Source of the DNA: Xestospongia bergquistia
Taxonomy: Eukaryota; Porifera; Demospongiae; Haplosclerida; Petrosiidae
DNA length: 64,000 nt
Reading direction: 5' to 3'
Assembly (NCBI GenBank): GCA_963965975.1
Contig: OZ014422.1
Span: 1-64,000, forward strand
Position 1 is the first letter of the stretch, and every line of letters begins with the position of its first letter. The position numbers and the translations under genes were made by a program. Below, one piece after another: positions 1 to 58,396 of the stretch. A model generated the notes under the pieces. The model searched no databases and was not told where the DNA came from. It saw only the letters and a list, made by a program, of their open reading frames with translations.

Positions 1-3000
1 CTCATGTCACTTAAGGAGAGACTATCAGCCCTATTCTCTAGTCGGCCTTTAAGATACTCAAAAGAGTATACTGGTAACCATCTCAGAGGTCTGATGCATT
101 GCAGAACGCTGCCCCACAAGACATTGACAATCACAACTGTTTCAGTTTCTTTATATATGTACTGAAGATTGTCTTCACGCTCTTGTGGGGCGCCTATGAA
201 TCTCATTAACGATAACAGACCAGCAATGGTCAACTAAATTGGCTGTTTAAATAATTAAAACTATAAGAAAATATATTTTTTTAAGGGACAAGAATAAACT
301 CATCATATTTATGCAGGAACCTGGCCCCACAAATACACCAGCCTCATCTCCATAAAGAGAGACTACCAGCCCTATTCTCTAGCCGGCCTTTGGGATACTC
401 CAAAGAGTAGGCTGGTAACCATCACAGAGGTCTGATGCATTGCAGAACACTGGCCCACAACACACTGGCAATCACAACTGTTTTAGTTTCTTTATATATG
501 TACTGAAGATTGTCTTCATGCTCTTGTGGGGCGCCTATGAATCTCATTAACGATAACTGACCAGCAATGGTCAACTAAATTGGCTGTTTAAATAATTAAA
601 ACTATAAGAAATTATATTTTTTTAAGGGACAAGAATAAACTCATCCTATTTATGCAGGAACCTGGCCCCACAAATACACCAGCCTCATCTCCATAAAGAG
701 AGAGTACCAGCCCTATTCTCTAGCCGGCCTTTGGGATACTCCAAAGAGTAGGCTGGTAACCATCTCAGAGGTCTGATGCATTGCAGAACACTGGCCCACA
801 ACACACTGGCAATCACAACTGTTTCAGTTTCTTTATATATGTACTGAAGATTGTCTTCATGCTCTTGTGGGGCGCCTATGAATCTCATTAAGGATAACAG
901 ACCAGCAATGGTCAACTAAATTGGCTGTTTAAATAATTAAAACTATAAAAAAAAATATTTTTTAAGGGACAAGAATAAACTCATCCTATTTATGCAGGAA
1001 CTGGGCCCCACAAATACACCAGCCTCATCTCCATAAAGAGAGACTACCAGCCCTATTCTCTAGCCGGCCTTTGGGATACTCCAAAGAGTAGGCTGGTAAC
1101 CATCTCAGAGGTCTGATGCATTGCAGAACACTGGCCCACAACACACTGGCAATCACAACTGTTTTAGTTTCTTTATATATGTACTGAAGATTGTCTTCAT
1201 GCTCTTGTGGGGCGCCTATGAATCTCATTAACGATAACTGACCAGCAATGGTTAACTAAATTGGCTGTTTAAATTATTAAAACTTTAAGAAACTATATTT
1301 TTTAAGGGACAAGAATAAACTCATCCTATTTATGCAGGAACCTGGCCCCACAAATACACCAGCCTCATCTCGCTTAAAGAGAGACTACCAGCCCTATTCT
1401 CTAGCCGGCCTTTGGGATACTCCAATGAGTAGGCTGGTAACCATCTCAGAGGTCTGATGCATTGCAGAACACTGGCCCACAACACACTGGCAATCACAAC
1501 TGTTTCAGTTTCTTTATATATGTACTGAAGATTGCCTTCATGCTCTTGTGGGGCACCTATGATCTCATTAACGATAACTGACCAGCAATGGTCAACTGAA
1601 TTGGCTTTTTAAATAATTAAAACTATATAAGAAACTATGTTTTTTAACGGACAAGAATAAACTTATCCTATTGAAGCAGGAACTGGGCCCCACAAATACA
1701 CCAGCCTCATGTCACTTAAGGAGAGACTATCAGCCCTATTCTCTAGTCGGCCTTTAAGATACTCAAAAGAGTATACTGGTAACCATCTCAGAGGTCTGAT
1801 GCATTGCAGAACGCTGCCCCACAAGACATTGACAATCACAACTGTTTCAGTTTCTTTATATATGTACTGAAGATTGTCTTCACGCTCTTGTGGGGCGCCT
1901 ATGAATCTCATTAACGATAACAGACCAGCAATGGTCAACTAAATTGGCTGTTTAAATAATTAAAACTATAAGAAAATATATTTTTTTAAGGGACAAGAAT
2001 AAACTCATCATATTTATGCAGGAACCTGGCCCCACAAATACACCAGCCTCATCTCCATAAAGAGAGACTACCAGCCCTATTCTCTAGCCGGCCTTTGGGA
2101 TACTCCAAAGAGTAGGCTGGTAACCATCACAGAGGTCTGATGCATTGCAGAACACTGGCCCACAACACACTGGCAATCACAACTGTTTTAGTTTCTTTAT
2201 ATATGTACTGAAGATTGTCTTCATGCTCTTGTGGGGCGCCTATGAATCTCATTAACGATAACTGACCAGCAATGGTCAACTAAATTGGCTGTTTAAATAA
2301 TTAAAACTATAAGAAACTATATTTTTTTAAGGGACAAGAATAAACTCATCCTATTTATGCAGGAACCTGGCCCCACAAATACACCAGCCTCATCTCCATA
2401 AAGAGAGACTACCAGCCCTATTCTCTAGCCGGCCTTTGGGATACTCCAAAGAGTAGGCTGGTAACCATCAACTGTTTTAGTTTCTTTATATATGTACTGA
2501 AGATTGTCTTCATGCTCTTGTGGGGCGCCTATGAATCTCATTAAGGATAACAGACCAGCAATGGTCAACTAAATTGGCTGTTTAAATAATTAAAACTATA
2601 AGAAACTATATTTTTTAAGAGACAAGAATAAACTCATCCTATTTATGCAGGAACCTGGCCCCACAAATACACCAGCCTCATCTCCATAAAGAGAGACTAC
2701 CAGCCCTATTCTCTAGCCGGCCTTTGGGATACTCCAAAGAGTAGGCTGGTAACCATCAACTGTTTTAGTTTCTTTATATATGTACTGAAGATTGTCTTCA
2801 TGCTCTTGTGGGGCGCCTATGAATCTCATTAAGGATAACAGCCCAGCAATGGTCAACTAAATTGGCTGTTTAAATAATTAAAACTATAAGAAACTATATT
2901 TTTTTAAGGGACATAAACTCATCCTATTTATGCAGGAACCAAGCCCCACAAATACACCAGCCTCATCTCCATAAAGAGAGAGTACCAGCCCTATTCTCTA

Positions 3001-6000
3001 GCCGGCCTTTGGGATACTCCAAAGAGTAGGCTGGTAACCATCTCAGAGGTCTGATGCATTGCAGAACACTGGCCCACAACACACTGGCAATCACAACTGT
3101 TTCAGTTTCTTTATATATGTACTGAAGATTGTCTTCATGCTCTTGTGGGGCGCCTATGAATCTCATTAAGGATAACAGACCAGCAATGGTCAACTAAATT
3201 GGCTGTTTAAATAATTAAAACTATAAAAAAAAATATTTTTTAAGGGACAAGAATAAACTCATCCTATTTATGCAGGAACTGGGCCCCACAAATACACCAG
3301 CCTCATCTCCATAAAGAGAGACTACCAGCCCTATTCTCTAGCCGGCCTTTGGGATACTCCAAAGAGTAGGCTGGTAACCATCTCAGAGGTCTGATGCATT
3401 GCAGAACACTGGCCCACAACACACTGGCAATCACAACTGTTTTAGTTTCTTTATATATGTACTGAAGATTGTCTTCATGCTCTTGTGGGGCGCCTATGAA
3501 TCTCATTAACGATAACTGACCAGCAATGGTTAACTAAATTGGCTGTTTAAATTATTAAAACTTTAAGAAACTATATTTTTTAAGGGACAAGAATAAACTC
3601 ATCCTATTTATGCAGGAACCTGGCCCCACAAATACACCAGCCTCATCTCGCTTAAAGAGAGACTACCAGCCCTATTCTCTAGCCGGCCTTTGGGATACTC
3701 CAATGAGTAGGCTGGTAACCATCTCAGAGGTCTGATGCATTGCAGAACACTGGCCCACAACACACTGGCAATCACAACTGTTTCAGTTTCTTTATATATG
3801 TACTGAAGATTGCCTTCAAGCTCTTGTGGGGCACCTATGATCTCATTAACGATAACTGACCAGCAATGGTCAACTAAATTGGCTTTTTAAATAATTAAAA
3901 CTATATAAGAAACTATGTTTTTTAACGGACAAGAATAAACTTATCCTATTGAAGCAGGAACTGGGCCCCACAAATACACCAGCCTCATGTCACTTAAGGA
4001 GAGACTATCAGCCCTATTCTCTAGTCGGCCTTTAAGATACTCAAAAGAGTATACTGGTAACCATCTCAGAGGTCTGATGCATTGCAGAACGCTGCCCCAC
4101 AAGACATTGACAATCACAACTGTTTCAGTTTCTTTATATATGTACTGAAGATTGTCTTCACGCTCTTGTGGGGCGCCTATGAATCTCATTAACGATAACA
4201 GACCAGCAATGGTCAACTAAATTGGCTGTTTAAATAATTAAAACTATAAGAAAATATATTTTTTTAAGGGACAAGAATAAACTCATCATATTTATGCAGG
4301 AACCTGGCCCCACAAATACACCAGCCTCATCTCCATAAAGAGAGACTACCAGCCCTATTCTCTAGCCGGCCTTTGGGATACTCCAAAGAGTAGGCTGGTA
4401 ACCATCACAGAGGTCTGATGCATTGCAGAACACTGGCCCACAACACACTGGCAATCACAACTGTTTTAGTTTCTTTATATATGTACTGAAGATTGTCTTC
4501 ATGCTCTTGTGGGGCGCCTATGAATCTCATTAACGATAACTGACCAGCAATGGTCAACTAAATGGGCTGTTTAAATAATTAAAACTATAAGAAACTATAT
4601 TTTTTTAAGGGACAAGAATAAACTCATCCTATTTATGCAGGAACCTGGCCCCACAAATACACCAGCCTCATCTCCATAAAGAGAGACTACCAGCCCTATT
4701 CTCTAGCCGGCCTTTGGGATACTCCAAAGAGTAGGCTGGTAACCATCAACTGTTTTAGTTTCTTTATATATGTACTGAAGATTGTCTTCATGCTCTTGTG
4801 GGGCGCCTATGAATCTCATTAAGGATAACAGACCAGCAATGGTCAACTAAATTGGCTGTTTAAATAATTAAAACTATAAGAAACTATATTTTTTAAGAGA
4901 CAAGAATAAACTCATCCTATTTATGCAGGAACCTGGCCCCACAAATACACCAGCCTCATCTCCATAAAGAGAGACTACCAGCCCTATTCTCTAGCCGGCC
5001 TTTGGGATACTCCAAAGAGTAGGCTGGTAACCATCAACTGTTTTAGTTTCTTTATATATGTACTGAAGATTGTCTTCATGCTCTTGTGGGGCGCCTATGA
5101 ATCTCATTAAGGATAACAGCCCAGCAATGGTCAACTAAATTGGCTGTTTAAATAATTAAAACTATAAGAAACTATATTTTTTTAAGGGACATAAACTCAT
5201 CCTATTTATGCAGGAACCAAGCCCCACAAATACACCAGCCTCATCTCCATAAAGAGAGAGTACCAGCCCTATTCTCTAGCCGGCCTTTGGGATACTCCAA
5301 AGAGTAGGCTGGTAACCATCTCAGAGGTCTGATGCATTGCAGAACACTGGCCCACAACACACTGGCAATCACAACTGTTTCAGTTTCTTTATATATGTAC
5401 TGAAGATTGTCTTCATGCTCTTGTGGGGCGCCTATGAATCTCATTAAGGATAACAGACCAGCAATGGTCAACTAAATTGGCTGTTTAAATAATTAAAACT
5501 ATAAAAAAAATATTTTTTAAGGGACAAGAATAAACTCATCCTATTTATGCAGGAACTGGGCCCCACAAATACACCAGCCTCATCTCCATAAAGAGAGACT
5601 ACCAGCCCTATTCTCTAGCCGGCCTTTGGGATACTCCAAAGAGTAGGCTGGTAACCATCTCAGAGGTCTGATGCATTGCAGAACACTGGCCCACAACACA
5701 CTGGCAATCACAACTGTTTTAGTTTCTTTATATATGTACTGAAGATTGTCTTCATGCTCTTGTGGGGCGCCTATGAATCTCATTAACGATAACTGACCAG
5801 CAATGGTTAACTAAATTGGCTGTTTAAATTATTAAAACTTTAAGAAACTATATTTTTTAAGGGACAAGAATAAACTCATCCTATTTATGCAGGAACCTGG
5901 CCCCACAAATACACCAGCCTCATCTCGCTTAAAGAGAGACTACCAGCCCTATTCTCTAGCCGGCCTTTGGGATACTCCAAAGAGTAGGCTGGTAACCATC

Positions 6001-8836
6001 TCAGAGGTCTGATGCATTGCAGAACACTGGCCCACAACACACTGGCAATCACAACTGTTTCAGTTTCTTTATATATGTACTGAAGATTGCCTTCATGCTC
6101 TTGTGGGGCACCTATGATCTCATTAACGATAACTGACCAGCAATGGTCAACTAAATTGGCTTTTTAAATAATTAAAACTATATAAGAAACTATGTTTTTT
6201 AACGGACAAGAATAAACTTATCCTATTGAAGCAGGAACTGGGCCCCACAAATACACCAGCCTCATGTCACTTAAGGAGAGACTATCAGCCCTATTCTCTA
6301 GTCGGCCTTTAAGATACTCAAAAGAGTATACTGGTAACCATCTCAGAGGTCTGATGCATTGCAGAACGCTGCCCCACAAGACATTGACAATCACAACTGT
6401 TTCAGTTTCTTTATATATGTACTGAAGATTGTCTTCACGCTCTTGTGGGGCGCCTATGAATCTCATTAACGATAACAGACCAGCAATGGTCACTAAATTG
6501 GCTGTTTAAATAATTAAAACTATAAGAAAATATATTTTTTTAAGGGACAAGAATAAACTCATCATATTTATGCAGGAACCTGGCCCCACAAATACACCAG
6601 CCTCATCTCCATAAAGAGAGACTACCAGCCCTATTCTCTAGCCGGCCTTTGGGATACTCCAAAGAGTAGGCTGGTAACCATCACAGAGGTCTGATGCATT
6701 GCAGAACACTGGCCCACAACACACTGGCAATCACAACTGTTTTAGTTTCTTTATATATGTACTGAAGATTGTCTTCATGCTCTTGTGGGGCGCCTATGAA
6801 TCTCATTAACGATAACTGACCAGCAATGGTCAACTAAATTGGCTGTTTAAATAATTAAAACTATAAGAAACTATATTTTTCTAAGGGACAAGAATAAACT
6901 CATCCTATTTATGCAGGAACCTGGCCCCACAAATACACCAGCCTCATCTCCATAAAGAGAGACTACCAGCCCTATTCTCTAGCCGGCCTTTGGGATACTC
7001 CAAAGAGTAGGCTGGTAACCATCAACTGTTTTAGTTTCTTTATATATGTACTGAAGATTGTCTTCATGCTCTTGTGGGGCGCCTATGAATCTCATTAAGG
7101 ATAACAGACCAGCAATGGTCAACTAAATTGGCTGTTTAAATAATTAAAACTATAAGAAACTATATTTTTTAAGAGACAAGAATAAACTCATCCTATTTAT
7201 GCAGGAACCTGGCCCCACAAATACACCAGCCTCATCTCCATAAAGAGAGACTACCAGCCCTATTCTCTAGCCGGCCTTTGGGATACTCCAAAGAGTAGGC
7301 TGGTAACCATCAACTGTTTTAGTTTCTTTATATATGTACTGAAGATTGTCTTCATGCTCTTGTGGGGCGCCTATGAATCTCATTAAGGATAACAGCCCAG
7401 CAATGGTCAACTAAATTGGCTGTTTAAATAATTAAAACTATAAGAAACTATATTTTTTTAAGGGACATAAACTCATCCTATTTATGCAGGAACCAAGCCC
7501 CACAAATACACCAGCCTCATCTCCATAAAGAGAGAGTACCAGCCCTATTCTCTAGCCGGCCTTTGGGATACTCCAAAGAGTAGGCTGGTAACCATCTCAG
7601 AGGTCTGATGCATTGCAGAACACTGGCCCACAACACACTGGCAATCACAACTGTTTCAGTTTCTTTATATATGTACTGAAGATTGTCTTCATGCTCTTGT
7701 GGGGCGCCTATGAATCTCATTAAGGATAACAGACCAGCAATGGTCAACTAAATTGGCTGTTTAAATAATTAAAACTATAAAAAAAAATATTTTTTAAGGG
7801 ACAAGAATAAACTCATCCTATTTATGCAGGAACTGGGCCCCACAAATACACCAGCCTCATCTCCATAAAGAGAGACTACCAGCCCTATTCTCTAGCCGGC
7901 CTTTGGGATACTCCAAAGAGTAGGCTGGTAACCATCTCAGAGGTCTGATGCATTGCAGAACACTGGCCCACAACACACTGGCAATCACAACTGTTTTAGT
8001 TTCTTTATATATGTACTGAAGATTGTCTTCATGCTCTTGTGGGGCGCCTATGAATCTCATTAACGATAACTGACCAGCAATGGTTAACTAAATTGGCTGT
8101 TTAAATTATTAAAACTTTAAGAAACTATATTTTTTAAGGGACAAGAATAAACTCATCCTATTTATGCAGGAACCTGGCCCCACAAATACACCAGCCTCAT
8201 CTCGCTTAAAGAGAGACTACCAGCCCTATTCTCTAGCCGGCCTTTGGGATACTCCAAAGAGTAGGCTGGTAACCATCTCAGAGGTCTGATGCATTGCAGA
8301 ACACTGGCCCACAACACACTGGCAATCACAACTGTTTCAATTTCTTTATATATGTACTGAAGATTGCCTTCATGCTCTTGTGGGGCACCTATGATCTCAT
8401 TAACGATAACTGACCAGCAATGGTCAACTAAATTGGCTTTTTAAATAATTAAAACTATATAAGAAACTATGTTTTTTAACGGACAAGAATAAACTTATCC
8501 TATTTAAGCAGGAACTGGGCCCCACAAATACACCAGCCTCATGTCACTTAAAGAGAGACTATCAGCCCTATTCTCTAGTCGGCCTTTGGGATACTCAAAA
8601 GAGTATACTGGTAACCATCACAGAGGTCTGATGCATTGCAGAACGCTGCCCCACAAGACACTGGCAATCACAACTGTTTCAGTTTCTTTATATATGTACT
8701 GAAGATTGTCTTCATGCTCTTTTGGGTCGCCTATGAATCTCATTAACGATAACTGACCAGCAATGGTCAACTAAATTGGCTGTTTAAATAATTAAAACTA
8801 TATAAGAAACTATATTTTTTAAGGGACAAGAATAAA
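1..8836. repeat. Satellite array with 2278-bp higher-order repeat
   Basis: The whole stretch is made of head-to-tail subunits of about 340 bp. Subunit starts, taken at the ctgg(g)ccccacaaatac motif, fall at about 321, 662, 1001, 1342, 1683, 2026, 2367, 2655, 2940 and 3279, giving lengths 341, 339, 341, 341, 343, 341, 288, 285 and 339. From 1001 to 3279 seven subunits form a 2278-bp block that recurs with almost no differences at 3279 and about 5557. Two subunits in each block are short (288 and 285 bp). The last subunit (8515-8836) is the most diverged and ends the array; the left end lies outside the window. The minus strand carries 67-91 codon open frames in each subunit, but they look like by-products of the repeat. 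No transposase or terminal inverted repeats were seen. Confidence 0.95.
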
Positions 8837-11956: not shown

Positions 11957-12990
11957 GTACATTTGGCAGTATCACAAAATAAAAGTTACTGAAGTACTCT
12001 TAACAGTTTTACTAACAAATAAGAAACTTACACTTTATAAATTCTTTAACCTGTTTGTGTGTGTATGTGTGACTCAAACATAAAAAGGTACAATGTTACA
12101 TTATACAGTGTTATGATTTTACTAACATAATAAACTATATGTACCTTTAGTAATCATTAATAACAAACTGTCCAGATTGTTTCACTAGTACATAACATAG
12201 ACACAACGTAAACTGCCTACAGAATAAAAAATTATATCATCAGTGACTATAATTGTGTATGTTGCTACATTATGTTACCATGTTATATCTGCTAGCAGCA
12301 TCCATAATACCAAAGACTCTGGAAGTGATCTAGTGTCTACAATATCATATAAAGCAGTTTATAACTAATTAATATTTGGTAACTTTTCATTGCTATTCAG
12401 GAGATAGGACTAGCATATAATCCTATGAAGAAAGAAAGGATATGAAAATAGTGATCTGACAAAAGGCTTACTTGAGAAATCTTTCTTGTTTTTACCCAAA
12501 GTTGTTCTTACTATCAGTAGCACTCAAACACATTATGATTAATATACAAATTAATACACAATTTATATGTGTACCTCATATTATGGTGATAGGAGACATT
12601 GACATGAAAGAAAATACTGCAATAAACCATGAACCTATTCTTACAGACACATAAACAGTAAACATGATAATTGACTAACCTCTTATCAGTAATCTTATTT
12701 TAATCTGAGAATATACATTGACAAAAATGTGAACAAAATTAAATAGAATGGATTCTTACAAATATATTTAGACATCAGGCTGTTCCTATAGCCACACACA
12801 TTTGGCTAACCACTTTTATAAACTCATTGTAAGCCTGTGATAAAGAGTGGGAGAATACACAATTAATTATACTACAGTCTTACATATTCCTTATTATCCA
12901 GAAGTTAGTATACAAATCTGACAATTTATTCAACTCCATGAACACTTATGAATTAGAAACATATCAATATTGCAATGTAGAATGACAGAC
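11957..12990. other. AT-rich intergenic stretch
   Basis: No gene recognised. A 60-codon open frame at 12472-12654 has no domain, membrane segment or exon context. Only low-complexity AT-rich sequence is evident. Confidence 0.5.
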
Positions 12991-12991
12991 C

Positions 12992-13222
12992 TTCAATTCT
13001 TCTTCCATTCTTGCTGTAGCAATGTCTTTTTAAAAGTTATCGCGCCAAATTCTGGACAATCACGTGATTTGTAGTATACTGACGTAGTGCACGTATTCAG
13101 TATATTATAACTATGACCTGTAGTTACTAGTATACTAAGTCAGTATACTGTAAGTTACGAGAACGTATACAATTTTCGACCATAATACTAAATTACTGCA
13201 GCAAGAATTGAAGAAGGATTGA
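12992..13222. repeat. Inverted repeat with nested GTATAC palindromes
   Basis: An imperfect 31-bp inverted repeat (12992-13022 against 13192-13222, sharing gcaagaat(g/t)gaagaa on opposite strands) flanks about 170 bp that contain several agtatact/gtatac palindromes and cacgtgat. This could be a hairpin element or a bidirectional promoter; no transcript can be assigned. Confidence 0.45.
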
Positions 13223-13849
13223 ACTGACAGTTGTTAATAGAGTAGAATATATGTGACCTAGTTTGCGACCACTTCTGTCAAATAAAAAGTCTCAGTATGG
13301 ACAGAAAAAGTGATGATTTCAATATTGTTAGGAATTTGAGTTAAACCAAAAAACAAAGAGAATAGTACCTAACAGTCATTTTGAAGCGTCTATAAAGTCA
13401 AAGTTCTTTCTACATTAGTACGTAGAAGCATTCGCGTTCTCATATATTAGTATACGATATGCGTAGGTGGAAAATTAAATTCCACTATTCTCAAAATTAA
13501 TTTTTGGTAGTAGCCACTGTATTTCCGTTTATATCTTGTTTCTTTAGCAACACTTACATTTATCCAAGGTATCAAACAATTCAACATTATCTATACTTTA
13601 AATGGTATGAAAATATGAAAATGACAGAAATGACTCAAGTGGTCCTTTTTTGCATATCCAGTCACATATAGTCAGATTTATGTTTTAACTCTTGGATAAT
13701 GAAGAACATCCAAGACTGTGTTATATGTAATGTTGTTGTGTTATCTCTCTGTGTGTTATTGATCTTTAATAACTTTTTACAGTTGTACTGTTCTCAACAA
13801 TGAATTATGTCCTTCGGCAACAAGTTAACTACAAAATATGAAAGTCAAA
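13223..13849. other. Intergenic stretch, nothing recognised
   Basis: No gene, exon or clear repeat was identified. A 15-codon frame starts at 13296 but has no supporting context. Confidence 0.4.
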
Positions 13850-14130
13850 TTTCCTTTGTGGCTCATTAGAAAAGCCAAATATTTGTCATCAAAATCAACA
13901 GCAAACACAATCACTTCTAACTGGTTCTTTTCATATAGTCTTCCTTGAAACTTCTTATGTACCTAATTTATAATATCTCCCATTCCTCATCAGTTAGCCC
14001 AGTTAATCACAAATACGAACAGTTCCTTTATCAATGTCAAGAAGTCCAGCTGGATTCCCAAATCATAACATAACTATAATATGGACGTTGTAACACCTAC
14101 CACATTTCATATATTGTTATATTATATACT
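13850..14130 (-). repeat. Diverged duplicate segment, copy 2
   Basis: Partner of 8950-9400. The minus strand reads EVIVFAVDFDDKYLAFLMS and a stop about 14 residues later, then, further upstream, other interrupted coding-like pieces (GLLDIDKGTVRICD followed by a stop). It looks like a decayed coding segment; the parent gene was not recognised. Confidence 0.4.
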
Positions 14131-17409: not shown

Positions 17410-18528
17410 TTATGTAGAATATATTGGATTAATAGTAGTAAGTGGATATTCATCATGTTGCTGTTGTTTGTCAAATGTAGAGTAGATTTTAGACCTATGT
17501 CCTCTCATTAATTGATAATGGCCTGATTTACGACAGTAATACATTCCACTGCAAACAGCTAAAATTGTGAATACAATTTGGCAAGTTCCAAACACAATGA
17601 TACTAAGAGCCATTGTTGAACCCAATATAGAAAGACGTGGTGATCCATTTACTATAACTGTATAATGAGAATCCCATATATTCGAAGGATGCTCTCCTGT
17701 AACAACGACTAGTTTGTTCCACTGACCAGAATAGGGAACAGATACTTGACAAGATGGATGACTACTATCAATAGTACAATGAGATAGGGAATAATGTTCA
17801 ATGTTAAATAGTTGATATCTCTCAAAGGTTTGTGTTATGTTGGATGACACTTGATGACTGTCATTAGTATGATATACAAAATAGTAGTTATCATCAGAAT
17901 CAGCAGTAAATGTTGGTATGGATACAGTTTGAGGACAATTTAAGGTTATATAGAGTTTGTATACAGTATATTGAACATCAAATGTGGCAATCCAACGTTT
18001 AAAATTACCAGTACCTTTCACAATAGAAACATAGTAACCAGATCCACTGGTAACACAACCTAAAAGAGAAAAATTTGAACCTTTAAAGAAATAAAACTGC
18101 CAAAATAAGTAGTCCTGTCCAAAAATAGTGAAAGTATCCATTATCTCGAACTTGTTGGTAGGGACTGTTGTCGGAACATCGTTGACAAGATAAAGTGTTG
18201 CGTTGATTAGAACAGGTGCGTCGAGATCATCAGAGTAGTACAATTTAAGAGAAGAAAAAAATCTCGATGGGAACTCCACCAGGCGACTATCTCCAGGGGT
18301 CATTCTTAAATCTTTACTGAAACGATAAGAAGTTATGACACTTCCTAAAATACTTGTATAAAGCAACATAGCTAACACAGCTAGAATTCCAAACCACCAG
18401 CAGCAACAGCAACCTTTCATGCGATTAGATAGCTCCATTCTTGCTTGAGCCCCACCCAATCTGCAGTGCTGTGGGAGGTACCATTGATCACGTGATGTCC
18501 TTTCCACCCCTAACCAAAGACTTGGCAT
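17410..18528 (-). CDS. Intronless two-pass membrane protein, APD1-4-like ectodomain (paralogue 1)
   Basis: A 372-residue protein in one exon. A short basic, Cys/Trp-rich N-terminus is followed by a membrane segment (about residues 45-68), an ectodomain with many NxS/T sites, and a second membrane segment (about 305-330) before a cytosolic tail. The ectodomain order (ATLYLVND, LFWQFYFFKGSNFSL, a G-x-FKRWI block, YYFVYHTN, then two Cys separated by nine residues) is shared with the paralogues at 22207 and 23504. It resembles the N/middle domains of plant APD1-4 ubiquitin ligases, but there is no RING finger here; that link is an inference from memory. The tail has YPLTTI, a possible YxxPhi sorting signal. 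Start at 18528 or at an internal Met (18438). Divergent from the ankyrin gene 72 bp away. Confidence 0.85.
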   Translation of the reverse strand: MPSLWLGVERTSRDQWYLPQHCRLGGAQARMELSNRMKGCCCCWWFGILAVLAMLLYTSILGSVITSYRFSKDLRMTPGDSRLVEFPSRFFSSLKLYYSDDLDAPVLINATLYLVNDVPTTVPTNKFEIMDTFTIFGQDYLFWQFYFFKGSNFSLLGCVTSGSGYYVSIVKGTGNFKRWIATFDVQYTVYKLYITLNCPQTVSIPTFTADSDDNYYFVYHTNDSHQVSSNITQTFERYQLFNIEHYSLSHCTIDSSHPSCQVSVPYSGQWNKLVVVTGEHPSNIWDSHYTVIVNGSPRLSILGSTMALSIIVFGTCQIVFTILAVCSGMYYCRKSGHYQLMRGHRSKIYSTFDKQQQHDEYPLTTINPIYST

Positions 18529-18600
18529 ATTTGGAAGTGAGTTTGTGGTTTAACTTTAATGTAAAATGTGATCTCTTGTTTCAATTAACTAGGTGTAGTA
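18529..18600. promoter_or_regulatory. Shared 72-bp head-to-head promoter region
   Basis: Only 72 bp separate the start codons of the membrane-protein paralogue (minus) and the ankyrin gene (plus), or about 162 bp if the internal Met is used. Any promoter must be bidirectional or overlap coding sequence. No TATA or known site is evident. Confidence 0.5.
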
Positions 18601-21600
18601 ATGTCAGATGAGCTGTTGTCAAAATTTCATCGAGCTTGTGCTGATGGTGATATCAACCAAGTTAAGGAACTCCTAACTAGCCATAATGACATCAGAGATG
18701 CTATAAATAAATGTGTTTATAATAATGGCTTTGGAGGTACACTAGCTGCTATTCATCTAGCTGTTGAAGGCATGCATAAGGAGGTGTGCCAGTTTTTATT
18801 AAGCAATGGAGCTAGTACAAGTGTTACCGATAGCGAAGGTTACTCACCCATTCATATTGCCTGTAATGTCGGCAATGTCGATGTTCTCAACCTCCTTCTT
18901 GATAATGGTGCTGATCCAGAATCCCTTGTGGAACGTATTGGTTCAACTACATTACACGAAGCTGTGTGTAGTGGTTCTCTTGAAATTGTAGAGGCTCTTT
19001 TGGATCGAATTTCCAATAAAGATCTTGTTAACCACCAAGACACAAAGGGCTGGTCCCCACTTCATTATGCTTGTCAATATGGTCACAACAAAATAGTAAA
19101 AGTTCTTCTCGCTCATAAAGCAAAAGTTGACTTGCAGGTGCAAATAGGCAGAACGTCCTTGCATCTTGCAGCATTTGAAGGTCATATTGAGTGTGTTAAG
19201 CTTTTGTTAGATCATCATTGTGATGTAGATATCCAAGATGAAGAAGGGTGGACAGCCATTATTCTTGCTTGTCAAGAAGGTCATCCTGAAATAGTTCGAA
19301 TGCTTATAGAGCACTGCCCTGATTTGAGTTTAGTTAGTAATCTCACTGGTCGAAATGCCATTCATGCAGCTAGTTTCCACGGTCATCTTCAATGTATTAG
19401 TCATGTTTTAGAAGCCGATTGCGACAACCTTATACATGCCAGCGACAAGGATGGGTGGACACCTCTTCATTTAGCTGCTCAAGAAGGTCACTCAGATATT
19501 GTGGAACTCTTTCTTTCTAACAAATGTCAAGGGATAAAAGTTGATTGTCAAGCCAAAAATGGCCGTACTCCACTTCATAATGCTGTTTTGAAAGGAAAAT
19601 TGAAAGTAGTGGAGTGCCTTTTACAATTTGGAGCCGACATCACTGTCAAAGATTCCAAAGGTTGGAGTCCTCTTCATGTAGCAGCTCAACATGGATTTTA
19701 CGAGATTGTCAAAATGTTAGTGATTTATGGAGCTGATATTAATGACATCATCGACAGTGGACGTAATTCTCTTCATTTGGCAGCTTTTGAAGGTCATAAC
19801 AGAGTGGCTGAATTTCTTGTAAAAAATAACATCAACTATACTCTTCAGGATAAAGATCAGTGGAGCCCTTTGCATTTAGCAGTACAAGAGGGACACCTGA
19901 AAATAGTGGAGCTCCTCCTAATCCAGCCTAAAATTATAATCAATGTTCAAGCCAAAAATTTAAGAGTTCCACTTCATTCAGCTTGTTACCATGGCCATCT
20001 AGCTATTGCCAAATTACTGCTACTTAGAGGATCAGAATGGACAATTAAAGATGAGAAAGGATGGACACCTCTTCATCTTTGTGCCCAGGAAGGTCATTTA
20101 GAAATTGTAAAAGAGTTAGTTCTACTAGGTGCTGATGTCAACACACAATCAGATAATCTTCGTGCTCCTCTTCATTTAGCTTGTATGAAGGGAAAGCTGT
20201 CTGTTGTTGAATATTTATTAGGGCATGGAGCTCAGATTGATATGAGGGACTCACGAAAGTGGACTCCTCTTTGTATCGCATGTCATCATAATCATTATCA
20301 AGTTGCCAAGTTACTCATTGATGATGGCGCAGCAATTAATGTTCAAATTGGAGGAGGTCGTAATCCATTACATTTAGCAGCTTTTAATGGCTTTCTGACA
20401 ATTTGTGAACTGTTAACTGATAATGGAGTTGAGTTAAATGGAAAAGACAGTGAAGGCTGGACTCCTTTACATCTTGCTGCACAAGAGGGTTCATTAGAAG
20501 TTGTCAAATTATTAGTTTTTAAAGGTGCAGATATTTTGTCCTCATCTGTCAGTGGTCGTAAACCTCTTCACATGTGCTCGTCATCTGGTTATGTTGAAAT
20601 TATTGAATTCTTGCTTTCACATGGAGCACAGGTCAATTCTACAGATGCCAAATTATGGACACCACTCCACTCTGCTTGTAATAAAGGTCATCTTAAAGCA
20701 GCAACTGTCCTTCTCAACCACGGAGCTGAAATAGATGCCAAGATTCATATGGGACGTAATTCACTTCATCTCTGCTCTTTTAATGGACATAAAGAAGTTG
20801 CAAAGTTTCTTTTAGAAAAAGGTATTAGCATTCATGAGAAAGACAAAGATGGATGGACATCTTTACATTTGGCAGCTCAAGAAGGTCATATTGAAATAGT
20901 CGAGTTACTTCTTGATAAAGGTGCTGATGCTACAATACAAGCTAACAATCTTCGCATACCATTACATCTTGCTGCTATGCATGGCCACTCTAATATTGTG
21001 AAGCTCCTACTTAAACATTCTCCTCAGACAGATGCAACAGATTGTAAGAACTGGACTCCACTTCATTCAGCTTGTAACAAGTGCCAAACAGACACAGTTC
21101 GTGTTCTAATAGAACAAGGATCTGATGTTCATAAAGTAATTGACACAAAAAGAAATTGTCTACATTTGGCAGCTTTTAATGGGGGGAAAGAAGTGTGTGA
21201 GATCTTGTTAGAACATGGTTGTGATCTTTTAGCCCAAGATCAAGATGGCTGGTCATCTCTTCATTTAGCTGCTCAAGAAGGTCATCTAGAAACTGTTTGT
21301 CTCTTTCTAGATCATGGATCTGAAGTGGAAGTTCGATCTAACGATGGCCGATCTCCTCTTCATTTAGCTTGTCTTAAAGGTCGTACTGATGTTGTTCAGT
21401 TATTAATATCTCATGGCGCACGCTGTGATGTTATTGACAATAGTAATTGGACTCCATTAATTGATGCTGCTAGTGGAGGGTTTTTAGAGCTTGTCAAAAT
21501 TCTTATTAACCACCAAGTTCCATTAGATGTTCAGACTTCGGGAAGACTAGAAACAGCTCTTCATCTTGCACTTTATAATACTCACACTGAAGTTTCTCTA

Positions 21601-21951
21601 TACCTTGTACAGCGTGAAGCTAAATGTGACTTGCTTGATGTCTCAGGAAAAAATGCTTTTCACTTAGCTGTACAGAAGGGTCATCTAAAAGTTGTTGAAG
21701 AAATGTGCAACAGGTATGAAGTGTTACTGTATGAGAAGACAGAATCAGGCATTTCACCTCTCAAATTAGCCTGTCAAAATGGCCACATTGATGTAGTAGC
21801 ATTTCTTTTACATAAAGGAGCTGTTCTTAATAACATGATAGATGAAGCTAAGTCTGCTCTAGAAGCTGCTCGCTCTAATGGACACAATGATATAGTCTGT
21901 TTAATTGTTGACAGTGGAATATTGGAAGGAGATGGTTGGTATGTTGGATAG
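18601..21951 (+). CDS. Giant intronless ankyrin-repeat protein, about 32 repeats
   Basis: A 1116-residue protein in a single exon. From residue about 5 to 1105 it consists almost wholly of 33-residue ankyrin repeats (consensus G-x-TPLHLA--GH--IV--LL--GA), predicted to stack into a long solenoid for protein binding. No death, SAM, kinase, TPR or membrane domain is visible, and no signal peptide, so a cytosolic or nuclear scaffold is likely. Repeats alternate between two kinds: one beginning D-x-GW(T/S)PLH...AQEGH and one beginning (G)R(N/x)(S/P)LHLA, giving a two-repeat super-unit. The first and last few repeats are more degenerate, as capping repeats usually are. Neighbouring genes on both sides are intronless membrane-protein paralogues, unlike the intron-rich genes elsewhere in the window. 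Partner and pathway unknown. Confidence 0.93.
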   Translation: MSDELLSKFHRACADGDINQVKELLTSHNDIRDAINKCVYNNGFGGTLAAIHLAVEGMHKEVCQFLLSNGASTSVTDSEGYSPIHIACNVGNVDVLNLLLDNGADPESLVERIGSTTLHEAVCSGSLEIVEALLDRISNKDLVNHQDTKGWSPLHYACQYGHNKIVKVLLAHKAKVDLQVQIGRTSLHLAAFEGHIECVKLLLDHHCDVDIQDEEGWTAIILACQEGHPEIVRMLIEHCPDLSLVSNLTGRNAIHAASFHGHLQCISHVLEADCDNLIHASDKDGWTPLHLAAQEGHSDIVELFLSNKCQGIKVDCQAKNGRTPLHNAVLKGKLKVVECLLQFGADITVKDSKGWSPLHVAAQHGFYEIVKMLVIYGADINDIIDSGRNSLHLAAFEGHNRVAEFLVKNNINYTLQDKDQWSPLHLAVQEGHLKIVELLLIQPKIIINVQAKNLRVPLHSACYHGHLAIAKLLLLRGSEWTIKDEKGWTPLHLCAQEGHLEIVKELVLLGADVNTQSDNLRAPLHLACMKGKLSVVEYLLGHGAQIDMRDSRKWTPLCIACHHNHYQVAKLLIDDGAAINVQIGGGRNPLHLAAFNGFLTICELLTDNGVELNGKDSEGWTPLHLAAQEGSLEVVKLLVFKGADILSSSVSGRKPLHMCSSSGYVEIIEFLLSHGAQVNSTDAKLWTPLHSACNKGHLKAATVLLNHGAEIDAKIHMGRNSLHLCSFNGHKEVAKFLLEKGISIHEKDKDGWTSLHLAAQEGHIEIVELLLDKGADATIQANNLRIPLHLAAMHGHSNIVKLLLKHSPQTDATDCKNWTPLHSACNKCQTDTVRVLIEQGSDVHKVIDTKRNCLHLAAFNGGKEVCEILLEHGCDLLAQDQDGWSSLHLAAQEGHLETVCLFLDHGSEVEVRSNDGRSPLHLACLKGRTDVVQLLISHGARCDVIDNSNWTPLIDAASGGFLELVKILINHQVPLDVQTSGRLETALHLALYNTHTEVSLYLVQREAKCDLLDVSGKNAFHLAVQKGHLKVVEEMCNRYEVLLYEKTESGISPLKLACQNGHIDVVAFLLHKGAVLNNMIDEAKSALEAARSNGHNDIVCLIVDSGILEGDGWYVG

Positions 21952-22206
21952 ACACTTTGACATATGCGTGTATGTGTGTGTGTGTGTGTGTGTGTATTGG
22001 ATCCTGATAGCTTTCTTCTTCTGTAGTAAAATATTTATTGTCCTCCTTTATACTTGAAATAATGATATTATGTGGGCGGACACATTTTTTAATCAATCAA
22101 TTATTATTAATTTTAGTCAATGAATACCAATAAATATTGTCATGTGATGATTCTTTAGCATTTTTTGGGGTTACTGTTTTGTACTCCTGATCTTATATCT
22201 CTAAAA
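21952..22206. repeat. Short intergenic region with (TG)n microsatellite
   Basis: A TG dinucleotide run at about 21967-21996 lies just after the ankyrin stop codon. The remainder is AT-rich and presumably holds the ankyrin 3' end and the promoter of the next gene. Confidence 0.7.
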
Positions 22207-23319
22207 ATGCCTCACGGAGGTGGTCATGTTGGTGGAGGTCATCATGGCGGTGGTGGAGGGGGAGGATTTCGTCATCATCATCATCATCATCATTATGGTG
22301 GTGTGGTGTATACTTCTGGTCCATTCTTCTATGGGCGTTATCGATATCGTGGTTGGATCTGGGGTGGTGTTGGAATAGTTATTCTAATTTGCATTGTTAT
22401 TGCTATTGTTTTGTCAGTACAATATGGTGGAGAAACTAATGATGAAAATATGTACACTCCCTATGATACTCGTCTTCATTATTTTTCAACTTTTTTCTAC
22501 TCTGGTGCTACAGTAAGATGTCAAGACATTCCAGTCAACAATAATGGCTTTCTCTATCTCCTTCAAGAGAAACCACCCCTTACCTCACAGAATGTCTTCA
22601 GTTTCAATGACAGCTTCAAGATTGACAAAGGAGAATACAGATATTGGCATTTTTACCTTTATCCTAATTCTAACTTTACATTGACAGCCTGTGTTGTTGG
22701 TACCTCATATACCTTTTATATAATAAAGGGAACATCTAAATTCAGACAATGGATTGATTCCCCAAGCACTAGTAAAAGTGTTAAACATTTATTAGTTAGC
22801 CAGTCTTGTGATGATGATGATGGTAGTAACTCAATGTCATATACAGCAACTGAAGAAGATCATTATTACTTTGTTTATTATTATGATGGTTATAATAGTG
22901 TGGGTGGTAAACAGTTTCTTTCCTTTGAACGTTATGAATATTCTGTTCCTGACAGTAATGTTATAGCTGATCAGTGTTCTTTTACTGCAACTTCATCTTG
23001 TAAATTGACTACTGACTTTAGATCAAAATACAACAAATTACTAATTGTTATGCCATCTCCATCCAATGTAGACTGGAATACAGACCAATATCGAGTTTAT
23101 TATACCTCTCACAATCAACCACTGGGCTATGTTATAGTGATAGTTCCACCAGTTCTCCTTCTTGTGGTCATTGTGATAGCTATCATCATAGCTATTATTT
23201 GCTATCGTAGAGCAAAGAAGAGATCTTATAATCCTCTTATTAATGAGACTACATCTGCTTCTCCTCCTTCATATAATCCAAATTATCCAAGTGATTTATC
23301 TCCTCCTCCTTATAAATGA
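22207..23319 (+). CDS. Intronless two-pass membrane protein with His/Gly-rich N-terminus and PY motifs (paralogue 2)
   Basis: About 370 residues from the ATG at 22207; an in-frame ATG at 22165 would add 14 residues. The N-terminal cytosolic segment is Gly/His-rich with a run of seven His, followed by a basic aromatic stretch and membrane segment 1 (about residues 58-80). The ectodomain shares with the paralogues the GFLYLL, YWHFYLYPNSNFTL, FYIIKGTSKFRQWI, YYFVYYYDG and paired-Cys (QCSFTATSSC) blocks. Membrane segment 2 is followed by a tail containing PPSY and PPPY, classical ligands for WW domains of NEDD4-type ubiquitin ligases. Fold assignment to the APD1-4 group is an inference. The cytosolic His cluster could bind metal, but this is not shown. 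Confidence 0.87.
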   Translation: MPHGGGHVGGGHHGGGGGGGFRHHHHHHHYGGVVYTSGPFFYGRYRYRGWIWGGVGIVILICIVIAIVLSVQYGGETNDENMYTPYDTRLHYFSTFFYSGATVRCQDIPVNNNGFLYLLQEKPPLTSQNVFSFNDSFKIDKGEYRYWHFYLYPNSNFTLTACVVGTSYTFYIIKGTSKFRQWIDSPSTSKSVKHLLVSQSCDDDDGSNSMSYTATEEDHYYFVYYYDGYNSVGGKQFLSFERYEYSVPDSNVIADQCSFTATSSCKLTTDFRSKYNKLLIVMPSPSNVDWNTDQYRVYYTSHNQPLGYVIVIVPPVLLLVVIVIAIIIAIICYRRAKKRSYNPLINETTSASPPSYNPNYPSDLSPPPYK

Positions 23320-23370
23320 AGCTGAAATTATCTGAAATTATGTACTGTGTTATATCATCATGTTATTGCT

Positions 23371-23396
23371 ATATATATATATATATATATATATAT
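23371..23396. repeat. (AT)13 microsatellite
   Basis: Uninterrupted AT dinucleotides between two tandem paralogues, 50 bp after the stop codon of the first. Confidence 0.9.
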
Positions 23397-23503
23397 TGCT
23401 GACTTTACATTCTATTTATGTACATTGTTTTCCAATTAAATTGTTGTTATGATAGCACATTATCACATGATCAAAGTATCTGCTGTAGTAGCATAAGAAA
23501 GAA

Positions 23504-24622
23504 ATGGCAAGCACTGGTCTTTTAGCAGCTAGTATTACCAGTAAAGATCTGGCATTTCATGAAAGTGATTACCATACTCCTCGTGGGAAAAATGTTCTAT
23601 TGAAACGGAATTCATCAGCATGCTTGTGTCTTGTGATATCAGTGGTTGTTCTCTTTTTTCTTTTCTTTGGTATAACATTAGGAGTCAGATTGTCTGGTAC
23701 ACATAATTTTGTTACCCTTTCTGTCACTCTAGGAGATACCCAATTAATTGTTTTCAACAACCACTTTTGCCAAGGTGCAACATTAACAGTTGATACTGAT
23801 GAAGCTAAAGCAAATATGATTTTACTTAAAGACAAACCTTTGTTATCAGGGAAAAGTAACATTGTTATTGAGGCCAATTTTCAAATAACAGACTATGTTA
23901 AATATGAGGACATATATGGTTGGTATGATTATGATGAATACAGTGAAGTTATCAATTATGTAACATGGAGTTTTGATCTCTATCAAGGATCTACTATACA
24001 AGTTGATGCATGCCTCCCTTATGGAGGACAAGCTGTGTTTTATTTAGTGCAAGGAAAAAGCAACTATAATGGATGGAAGACAAACAGACAAAGTTATAAT
24101 GAAATGGCTGACATTCCTTTATGTAGTGGTGTCTCCAATTATGACTTGACGTATGATATAGTTGAAGACGACAAATATTATTTGGTTTTTATGGCTATTC
24201 AAGATGAACCTTTTATTAACATCACATTGAATTTAAATCGTACAGAATATGCTGTTGATAATTTAGCCAGTCAGCATTACTGTAATGCTACTAGCCAATC
24301 TTCCTGTACTCTTACCATCCCACTGAACAGTTATCATTATGCTTTATTAAGTACAATAGATACAACAACTAAGCATTTAGCATATGGAAGTAAGATTACC
24401 TTATTATGGAAATGCAACGCTCGTCAATGGATATATGTGATCATGTTCTTTCTACCAATGATATTCTTGAGTGCATTGTTTATAAGCATGTATTGTATTT
24501 TTGTGTGGTTCACTAAACGCAAGTTTCGTTCCTATCAAACACTCGATACTATCAACCAGTCTGATCCCCCTTCAAGACAAGCTAAACTCTTGTATGAAGA
24601 ACCTTCTCGTCTGACTCTATGA
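23504..24622 (+). CDS. Intronless two-pass membrane protein, APD1-4-like ectodomain (paralogue 3)
   Basis: A 372-residue single-exon protein, in tandem with paralogue 2 (185 bp apart). A cytosolic N-terminus of about 40 residues leads into a membrane segment (CLVISVVVLFFLFFGITLG), an ectodomain and a second membrane segment (about 303-330). Shared blocks are ANMILLKDKP, VTWSFDLYQGSTI, VFYLVQGKSNYNGW, KYYLVFMA and YCNATSQSSC. The loop between the first two is longer and rich in Tyr/Asp (EDIYGWYDYDEYSE). The tail (FRSYQTLDTI, LLYEEP) has Tyr-based motifs but no PPxY, so the three paralogues differ mainly at their cytosolic ends. Function not known. Confidence 0.86.
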   Translation: MASTGLLAASITSKDLAFHESDYHTPRGKNVLLKRNSSACLCLVISVVVLFFLFFGITLGVRLSGTHNFVTLSVTLGDTQLIVFNNHFCQGATLTVDTDEAKANMILLKDKPLLSGKSNIVIEANFQITDYVKYEDIYGWYDYDEYSEVINYVTWSFDLYQGSTIQVDACLPYGGQAVFYLVQGKSNYNGWKTNRQSYNEMADIPLCSGVSNYDLTYDIVEDDKYYLVFMAIQDEPFINITLNLNRTEYAVDNLASQHYCNATSQSSCTLTIPLNSYHYALLSTIDTTTKHLAYGSKITLLWKCNARQWIYVIMFFLPMIFLSALFISMYCIFVWFTKRKFRSYQTLDTINQSDPPSRQAKLLYEEPSRLTL

Positions 24623-34207: not shown

Positions 34208-36065
34208 TATTTATAATTTTTATTTACTAGTATAAATATTGTTATAACAATAGCCATTATTATTGAATATACTAAAAACTGATAGACAAGTGGAAAAGCT
34301 ATTAATGCAATGACAACATTTAATAATGATCCAAGAGCTTGAGTAATACACCAAAGAGCTTTTATGACATTACTATAATAATCATATATAAATAATTCAT
34401 TATCATTATTAATATTACCGTAATTTAGGTGGAGATTGTGAGTATGCAAACTCTAGTCCAGTAACAGCCACTAAAACTTCAGCAAATGAAATAAAAACTA
34501 ATTGTGGTAGTTGCCATAGCAACGAAACAGATCCACGACAATCATTAACATCTTCAGAAATATAAATTTGTAAAAGACAAGCTAAAATAAAACTTAACAT
34601 AGCACATATCATACCAGCAGTTAACTATAAAATACTAATGACAAAAGTAATAACAACAATATCTAATATACCTTATGTAATGGCTGGATAGTTATGTTCA
34701 TAACATGTTGTATATGAGGATAAACAATATAGTCCAATAATGGTATAAATAGAATAACCATTAAATCATTAATACTGGGCATTAAATCTAAGAATAGTAG
34801 TTTAAGTTAAAGTGTCACAGGATATTGTACCTGGTGGAATATGGAGTGATCCAAGATAACAATTCATTTGAGTTCCTTGTAAGACCCAAGTTGAGTTTTG
34901 TTGAAAGAATATTGCCCAAAATATTATCATAGGAATATAAACACCAGATATACGTAATAACTGATAGCATGTGTCTCTTGAATTAGTAGTTACATCATTA
35001 TGATGTAATTTATCATCTTTTAATAATGTCTGTGATTCTTCTTGAGGTGGTTTCTAAATAAATATCTCAACAAAATAGTTTTAACAACTACACTAACTTT
35101 ACAACAAACTGGCTTTTTACGATGATAACTCCATGTACCCAATAAAAATAACAAAGTTGACAATGTATATGGACCTAAAATGTATCGTTTATTATATTAT
35201 ATAATATTACTTACTCCATGTTAATAATAATGTTATCAAGAACCCAAGACTTTGTCGAGATACTGGCATACCAGACTCACTTACTAAATTACCAACATTG
35301 ACTGCTAAATAATACCACGAAAATGATTTTGCCTTAGCTGATGACTACAAAACAATACTACATCTAGTTACCATGGGAACAATAAACCTGTTCATCTGTA
35401 AATTGATCTCCCACAAATACACTTTGTATAGCATTTGTATGTCCATAACCCACAGCAAATATCTTAAAGAAAAAAATAATTTTTTCATTTTTTTATTAAA
35501 CTTACCATTAATCCAAAAAGTATTAAAACTACTGACAAAGACGGAGAGAGAGATAAATTGACAGAGACTAAGTGATGTCGAGTTAATTCTGAACAATTAG
35601 AAGAGTAGATGGTCGTGTTCTTACAACATGTAGGTACATTAATGGAATATTGCCATGACGACAGAACCACTAGAGCTAACCCAACTGTCGCTAATAGATT
35701 GCTTATATTTTGAGTGTGATAATTACCCAAAATATAGTCAGCTAACAGTCCACCAGTTAGAGCACTAAACTGTGATAATGCTATAAATATATTAACAATT
35801 ATTGTGCTTAATGTTTTAGCTCGTGATATACTGGAACAAACAAAGAGATAACGAGTAAAGTATAGTTCCAAAACAGCTTGTAGACCAGTAAATGAACTTA
35901 AAGAATATATAAATGACAAGAACTCACAACAATAAGATACCTTTGTAATGCTCCAGTACTTAATATAAGAAAAAGAGAAAAGTAATGAATAAATGCTTTG
36001 GATGGTTTCTTTTCTTCAGTATTAAGAGATTGTTCATTAGTAGCGCTGTAATTCACTGCTGCCAT
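34171..36065 (-). CDS. SLC15-like proton-coupled oligopeptide/histidine transporter
   Basis: A multi-exon 12-pass transporter of the POT/PTR family. Exon 1 from ATG 36063-36065 gives MAAVNYSATNEQSLNTEEKK, then the first membrane helix. SFTGLQAVLELYFTRYL, then FSALTGGLLADYILGNY, is the family's conserved N-terminal region (GGxxADxxxG). Near the end, AEVLVAVTGLEFAYSQSPP is the PTR signature segment, followed by three more helices and stop at 34171. The placing of the long loop with TCCKNTTIYSS suggests the SLC15A4/A3 or A1/A2 type; not resolved. Head-to-head with the RING gene, 78 bp between start codons, and overlapping the previous gene tail-to-tail. Confidence 0.82.
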
Positions 36066-36143
36066 GCCTCCTTAAACCACACCCACACATATTATGCTAT
36101 CCCATTCACCAGCCCCACCCTTCTAACATTGCAGACGAGAGAT

Positions 36144-37167
36144 ATGGGAATTGCAGTACATCTTATCGAAGGTGGTGAAGTCAAAGAGGAGCTCCTATGT
36201 TGTGTATGTTGTATGATATTAGAAGTGCCATGTCTTACATTATGTGAGCATTACTGCTGTCAACAATGTTTGACAACAAAAGTTAAAAAGAAACCTCGTT
36301 GTCATAAATGTGAAGTGGTTGTATCTCCTGCTGAAAATAATCTTGTACCAGATGAGATCATCAAAGCTATTGAGAAGTTATCAGTTCACTGTGTACTAGG
36401 TTGTAAAACAGTCCTTCCAATGAGCTTATTACATCATCATGTTACAAAGGAGTGCCAATTACGAGTCATTACTTGTGTTAATAGAGGGTGCAACCATCAA
36501 TGTTCAGTGCAAGATTTGGATCAACATCTAATAGAGTGTCCATATCAACTTGTACAATGTCAAGTTTGTCAAGCTGTTGTGACACAACGTGATATGTCAG
36601 CACATCAAGCTATTAAGAGATGTTTTGAACAACAAATAAAACAAGAAAGAGTAAAAAGTGCAAGAAAACTAAGTAGCGAATTAAAAGGTCATCGTATTGC
36701 TATGATACAACAACGTCATCTATCTGATCAAATGGAACGCCATCTTGTGAGTCAACATTATAATCAGCAACGTGTTTTACATCGTTCTACAAGTGCCGGA
36801 CCACTCACTAGTCACTCCATTCAGTCACGAGTTGGTAGTGCTATTGTTTTACAACGATATTCACGTAATATATCTGTACCTAATGCCACACCCACTTCAT
36901 GTATGAGCTGTGAAAACCATTTTCTTTCTGGGCGACGTCCTAGTGCTCGAAGACATTCCCACACAAAGGTAAAATCATATTTAATCATGATGTAATAATC
37001 ATTTTATTCTTTCAATTTTCATAACCTTTGAACAACATTGATTAAATAGCCAGTAAGTTAAACTCCTGTAATTAAAGTACTAATTATATTGTTAATTTTA
37101 GTGTGATCATTGTCAACATTGGAGAAGATGGAGTGGTCCAAGAGGATGGCCAAGTACAATGACTTAA
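36144..37167 (+). CDS. RING and TRAF-type zinc-finger protein, RNF41/RNF151-like
   Basis: Start chosen at ATG 36144 because MGIAVHLIEGGEVKEELLC lines up with RNF41-type N-termini; the open frame itself runs further upstream through the promoter of the divergent transporter. A RING finger follows (CCVCC, LCEHYCCQQCL, CHKC), then TRAF-type zinc fingers (CVLGCKTVLPMSLLHHHV, CVNRGCNHQCSVQDLDQH, CQVCQAVV), then a basic helical region. A second exon (from about 37103) adds CDHCQHWRRWSGPRGWPS and a stop at 37165-37167. Expected to be an E3 ubiquitin ligase acting in the cytosol. Its stop codon overlaps that of NUDT1 on the other strand. Confidence 0.8.
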
Positions 37168-58262: not shown

Positions 58263-58396
58263 TTTGAAAGTGGCGGGGTTGTATTTGATCACGTGCCGAC
58301 ACTTTAAGTACTTGCGATTAATTATTTAACCTTGCAGCGAGATATTCGATAAGTGGATTAAGGACAAGTTGCTATAACAGAGCACTGTGACAAGCT
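58263..58396. promoter_or_regulatory. 134-bp head-to-head promoter region
   Basis: Between USP1 (minus) and the caskin-like gene (plus). Contains gatcacgtgcc, a CACGTG E-box. Bidirectional function is inferred from spacing. Confidence 0.4.

Follow-up and report, generated by a model that had tools for sequence, protein, structure and literature searches.

APD1-4-like membrane protein genes and a neighbouring ankyrin gene near a contig end of the sponge Xestospongia bergquistia

Results

Gene content of the locus

The stretch of DNA analysed here, referred to as the window, comprises bases 1-64000 of contig C12 of Xestospongia bergquistia, whose genome was searched as 146.46 Mb in 21 contigs. 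At 17-25 kb from the contig end, the window contains a block of three genes for two-pass membrane proteins (P1, P3 and P4) and one gene for an ankyrin protein (ANK). The features of the block and of its surroundings are the following.

12 to 8836, no strand: 341-bp satellite array with which C12 begins; some TRF rows in it have a period of 288 bp
12528 to 14002, no strand: 1475-bp element, copies of which start less than 45 kb from base 1 on each of the 13 contigs C3-C15 (C12 included)
17410 to 18528, minus strand: P1, two-pass membrane protein of 372 aa with APD1-4_N and APD1-4_M; tail motifs YQLM, YSTF and NPIY
18529 to 18600, no strand: 72-bp gap separating the P1 start codon from that of ANK, candidate shared promoter
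18601 to 21951, plus strand: ANK, 1116 aa, about 33 ankyrin repeats with a four-repeat super-period
22207 to 23319, plus strand: P3, two-pass membrane protein of 370 aa with a Gly/His-rich N tail, APD1-4_N and APD1-4_M; tail motifs YNPL, NPNY, PPSY and PPPY
22730 to 23091, plus strand: stretch of P3 with a broken copy on C13 (88% DNA identity; gaps of 8, 3 and 15 bases)
23504 to 24622, plus strand: P4, two-pass membrane protein of 372 aa with APD1-4_M above and APD1-4_N below the cut-off; tail motif YQTL

Stop-to-stop frames of at least 370 codons occur in the 64-kb window at P1, ANK, P3 and P4 only; in 30 order-2 Markov simulations of the window, the longest frame comprised 187 codons and none reached 200. 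None of the four frames requires an internal intron, a statement that applies to the coding frames and not to untranslated exons. A previous sequence-only reading of the locus had described four adjacent genes without introns among neighbours that have them. All four frames were indeed recovered at the positions given, and introns were seen in a UCH gene, an ankyrin gene at about 59 kb and a region with CFA20 and propeller matches, the exon structure of the remaining neighbours being judged by frame lists only. The UCH domain is split over two frames (57927-58325, profile positions 1-26, and 56908-57861, profile positions 76-254), the ankyrin gene (59.0-59.7 kb) is divided over at least two frames, and the CFA20 domain and two weak beta-propeller matches, which stay below their cut-offs, are spread over 50.5-54.5 kb and are read by us as a putative WDR90-like gene. 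A 343-aa frame at 35964-36995, for which no Pfam family was found at E 0.01, may represent a fifth single-exon gene in the window. Judged by eye from its cysteine pattern, this frame has a RING- and TRAF-like look.

The membrane proteins P1, P3 and P4

The three membrane proteins share 19-28% pairwise identity. BLAST connected P1 with P3 and P3 with P4 at E-values of 1e-26 to 4e-8, and P1 with P4 at E 3.5e-8 in one comparison and not at E 0.001 in another. Each of the proteins possesses two hydrophobic stretches around a segment of 226-241 residues that carries two to four glycosylation sequons. The net charge of this middle segment is negative and the ends are neutral to basic, a distribution which, along with the sequons, is consistent with both termini being cytosolic and the middle lying outside or in the lumen. 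Together, the BLAST matches, the level of identity and the paired hydrophobic stretches bear out the proposal of three paralogous two-pass proteins. The APD1-4-like ectodomain that had been assigned to them was similarly supported by Pfam: APD1-4_M exceeded its cut-off of 25 bits in all three, although just so in P1 (25.2 bits, compared with 32.1 in P3 and 49.2 in P4), and APD1-4_N exceeded its cut-off of 27 bits in P1 (31.4) and P3 (51.7) and stayed below it in P4 (16.7). No RING family was detected in P1, P3 or P4 in Pfam at E 1, and NCBIfam yielded no family for them at E 0.001. The search for a relative of solved structure by sequence gave a single match (E 0.87) over the second membrane segment, which was dismissed. 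A literature search on APD1-4 yielded no paper on animal members by title. The N-terminal tail of P3 (22207-22344) is rich in glycine and histidine and includes a run of seven histidine residues, which is not so in the paralogues.

The ectodomain of P3, the one modelled among the three, gave a predicted structure of middling quality (pLDDT 63.7), with which Foldseek returned 29 matches at E ≤ 0.001. Most of these, viral capsid chains with TM-scores of 0.1-0.22 at 15-23 Å, were set aside as fold noise. Also among the 29 are 5gu5, a p24 GOLD domain, and 4dzg, a lysozyme inhibitor, for which the TM-scores normalised by target length are 0.57 and 0.62, respectively. GOLD-domain proteins (p24/TMED, SEC14L) share 5-12% sequence identity with the ectodomain model, and their Z against this model of pLDDT 63.7 hardly exceeds the 7-8 that models without a match usually give, with viral capsid sandwiches reaching up to 8.8.

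Further family members were sought with single-protein and Pfam queries, exon by exon, the best candidates being scored, so that the size of the family is a lower bound. Genome-wide, at least one full-length paralogue exists elsewhere (C1:2355808-2356719), and three of the four full members found sit within 7.2 kb. The paralogue on C1 scores 31.8 bits with APD1-4_N, and APD1-4_M was absent from it at E 1 in one Pfam search and at E 0.01 in another. Upstream of the first membrane segment its frame has no methionine and contains a splice-acceptor-like TTATTCAG, which together make a further 5' exon likely and, hence, a 5' intron probable. A tree of the four proteins placed P1 and P3 opposite P4 and the C1 paralogue with a support of 50, which does not fix their branching order. 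Beyond the full members, the genome holds four further weak matches (E 0.05-0.44) and a broken piece of P3 on C13 (6491074-6491415 in the protein search, 6491056-6491391 in the DNA comparison), which is interrupted by one TAA, is 82% identical at the protein level over residues 184-303 of P3, and lies 3 kb from the end of that contig. A horizontal origin of the membrane family was also considered and rejected: none of 122 pattern stretches in prokaryote species genomes and none of 114 in viral contigs encodes a relative.

Subtelomeric setting

The satellite array occupies the start of C12 and is followed by the 1475-bp element, for which the best 40 of 227 first-look candidates in the genome were scored. 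On the 12 contigs that share the element near base 1 with C12, the copies are 87-95% identical to it and partial on C6, C7 and C11; among the matches listed, there was none near base 1 of C1 or C2. The element also recurs towards the far end of both C12 and C13 and makes up the final kilobase of the latter; further copies at high coordinates fit far ends, and shorter matches also occur inside contigs. No run of telomere repeats was observed at base 1, and TTAGGG and CCCTAA words are scattered in the window. The copies near contig starts and the terminal satellite indicate that the block is most likely subtelomeric. It most likely constitutes a small subtelomeric tandem cluster of old, diverged APD-like copies, and the broken copy of P3 near the end of C13 hints that subtelomeres have exchanged sequence.

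The ankyrin gene

Using a custom consensus, ANK could be divided end to end into 33 repeats, the first and the last of which are weak. Identity is highest between repeats that lie four apart, with a mean of 37.5% compared with 29% for neighbours (28-38% over distances of 1-12 repeats), which suggests that the gene has grown by duplication of four-repeat blocks. No non-ankyrin domain was recognised outside the repeats, as the Pfam matches above cut-off were ankyrin families or fell inside repeats. The description of the 1116-residue product as an ankyrin-only solenoid is in line with this. Twelve NCBIfam models matched ANK, all of them below their cut-offs: ten for ankyrin effectors, one for a TRP channel, and MzaA.

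In the genome search with ANK, 41 of the 1158 first-look candidates were scored and yielded 180 matches. A hand count of the listed matches by contig, strand and frame length revealed, besides ANK, at least 31 long ankyrin frames of 904-4174 aa on C1, C3, C7, C9, C10, C11 and C14, which are open frames rather than confirmed ankyrin-only or whole genes and share 30-50% identity with ANK over the listed matches. A long uninterrupted ankyrin frame is, thus, ordinary in this genome and the habit of a class. Among the matches listed, C14 bears 16 of the 31 (at 0.64-1.97 and 5.50-5.55 Mb), C1 bears one, at 24.46 Mb and 22 Mb away from the APD-like gene of that contig, and none of the 31 is located near an APD-like gene that we found. 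A horizontal origin of ANK was rejected as well. One of nine pattern stretches encodes a relative, in Parashewanella hymeniacidonis, and its identity of 34% shows nothing, since this is about the level between ANK's own repeats. The long ankyrin stretch of this bacterium has one stop codon in the matched span, and the bacterial name suggests a sponge host.

The gap between P1 and ANK

The spacing of 72 bp that had been reported between P1 and ANK was reproduced as the distance between their start codons. The first 30 codons of P1 are doubtful, and its true start may, but need not, be the second methionine (codon 31), in which case the gap would measure 162 bp. In these 30 codons the GC content by codon position is 0.57/0.57/0.43 compared with 0.40/0.40/0.26 in the rest of the gene, and the in-frame score is 0.171 compared with 0.140 one base on, other parts of P1 ranging from -0.02 to 0.42. 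In the compact genome of the sponge Amphimedon queenslandica, a published account reports 11,379 head-to-head genes with starts less than 1 kb apart, and a bidirectional promoter is apparently common to almost one third of the genes (PMC4773876). Given how frequent such closely spaced head-to-head pairs are in Amphimedon, and if the same habit is assumed here, the 72-bp gap is weak evidence for a functional connection between P1 and ANK.

Tail motifs and candidate ligases

The tails of P1, P3 and P4 comprise 32-42 residues and carry differing motifs, in agreement with the different cytosolic tails that had been proposed: YQLM, YSTF and NPIY in P1, YNPL, NPNY, PPSY and PPPY in P3, and YQTL in P4. 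YxxPhi, NPxY and PPxY are read as ligands of AP-2, PTB and WW domains, respectively. In the three window tails YxxPhi starts at positions 8, 10 and 11, and by shuffling the chance of finding it within the first 14 positions of all three was 0.006; the corresponding values were 0.01 for two PPxY and 0.175 for one PPxY in P3, and 0.005 for NPxY in P1. All of these motifs are short and were chosen post hoc, after seeing the tails, so that the shuffling values flatter them. NPxY occurs in P3 as well (NPNY) and, thus, does not set P1 apart. Of the four tails, that of P3 alone has PPxY, whereas P1, P4 and the C1 paralogue lack it. The last of these carries YGAV near its C-terminus and has no membrane-near YxxPhi, from which it follows that neither YxxPhi nor PPxY is a rule of the family.

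Matches to WW and HECT domains were found close together on one strand at C14:1.215-1.222, C10:0.845-0.848, C10:0.181-0.191 and C12:3.083-3.086 Mb, paired by eye among 46 WW and 106 HECT matches. Based on these four loci, NEDD4-type ligases very likely exist in the genome.

Discussion

The sequence-only reading had taken the four genes for a functional module of receptors and an ankyrin scaffold. With ANK as a query at E 0.001, no matches were found in C1:2331000-2380999, a stretch that covers 20 kb on each flank of the C1 paralogue, at the end of C13 (6474400-6484399 and 6486500-6494400), or in C12:64001-74000. Scattering of the gene families without linkage, which had been named as evidence against such a module, is what was observed for the ankyrin class, and for the membrane family in the single case that can be scored, the gene on C1. 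A module in which the membrane proteins sense the outside and ANK acts as a cytosolic scaffold, co-expressed from a shared promoter, would agree with the adjacency of ANK to the membrane genes and with the 72 bp from its start codon to that of P1, and an ankyrin protein does work with a PPxY-bearing membrane adaptor in the case of CYYR1, WWP1 and ANKRD13A, as far as described (PMC11399591). However, counting ANK itself, at least 32 long ankyrin frames are dispersed over the genome, the C1 paralogue is without an ANK match within 20 kb, and close head-to-head genes are, according to the Amphimedon account, common (PMC4773876). We found no evidence that the four genes form one system, and the available tests went against it; the module is not supported, and we regard it as very unlikely.

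We tentatively favour, at slightly less than an even chance, a different reading, in which a diverged subtelomeric tandem cluster encodes endosomal proteins, P3 acts with a NEDD4-type ligase in trans, and ANK is a neighbour by chance, being an unrelated member of the large dispersed ankyrin class. P1, P3 and P4 would have both ends in the cytosol and expose a luminal or outer beta-sandwich that may bind a ligand or cargo. Just past the second membrane segment, the YxxPhi motif would route the proteins through endosomes, and in P3 the two PPxY motifs might recruit a WW-HECT (NEDD4-type) ligase. The ligase so recruited could then ubiquitinate the cargo held by the ectodomain, or P3 itself, and thereby direct it to lysosomal sorting. 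P1 and P4 may use other adaptors.

Plant APD1-4 have been described as transmembrane RING ligases that are tied to endomembranes and associate with V-ATPase and Rab proteins, and are referred to as orphan ligases, the substrates of which are not known (PMC13210498). The window proteins resemble the Arabidopsis APD1-4 (ABERRANT POLLEN DEVELOPMENT) RING E3 ligases in APD1-4_N and APD1-4_M and in their membrane location. In contrast to the plant proteins, which have a RING, P1, P3 and P4 match no RING family and end in short tails with trafficking-type motifs. On the reading favoured here, a NEDD4-type ligase acting in trans would replace the RING that the plant proteins bear in cis. The broader version of this idea, that an animal branch of APD proteins has lost or never had the RING, that the ectodomain it shares with the plant proteins works in this animal with a NEDD4-type ligase borrowed in trans through PPxY, and that the paralogues have been re-wired to other adaptors by their own tyrosine motifs, appears improbable to us.

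Known adaptors of NEDD4-type ligases offer a second comparison. The PPxY-bearing membrane protein CYYR1 has been reported to recruit WWP1 at late endosomes, and the ankyrin protein ANKRD13A to join the two via UIM motifs (PMC11399591). P3 shares with CYYR1/STMC6 and NDFIP a membrane-anchored tail that bears PPxY, in its case twice; unlike them, it has two membrane segments and an unrelated ectodomain. The likeness, which assumes putative WW binding, is limited to one of the three window proteins. Partners of the ANKRD13 type carry UIM beside their ankyrin repeats, whereas in ANK no UIM family was found by Pfam at E 1, a search in which the HMMER filters may drop weak short motifs.

Two further explanations concern the origin and the role of the membrane genes. 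They might encode immune-type surface receptors that diversify in the subtelomere, with tails that control trafficking only. The subtelomeric cluster, the identity of 19-28% between copies and the broken gene piece near the end of another contig (C13) are all in line with this; yet, the four full members found include no recent full copy, unlike large receptor arrays, and we consider such a role unlikely. Somewhat less unlikely is an origin of the single-exon copies through retrotransposition, the ancestor having had introns as the gene on C1 probably does. An upstream exon is likely in the C1 paralogue, and the window copies need no intron within their frames; on the other hand, the presence of three copies at a single locus agrees with tandem duplication, and the tree, with its support of 50, does not order the copies.

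RING-less animal relatives with defined tail motifs would suggest that what is conserved in the APD proteins is the ectodomain rather than the RING, and would provide a second system in which to seek the ligand of that ectodomain. The subtelomeric setting, for its part, suggests that, in this genome, part of an APD-like gene has been carried from one chromosome end to another.
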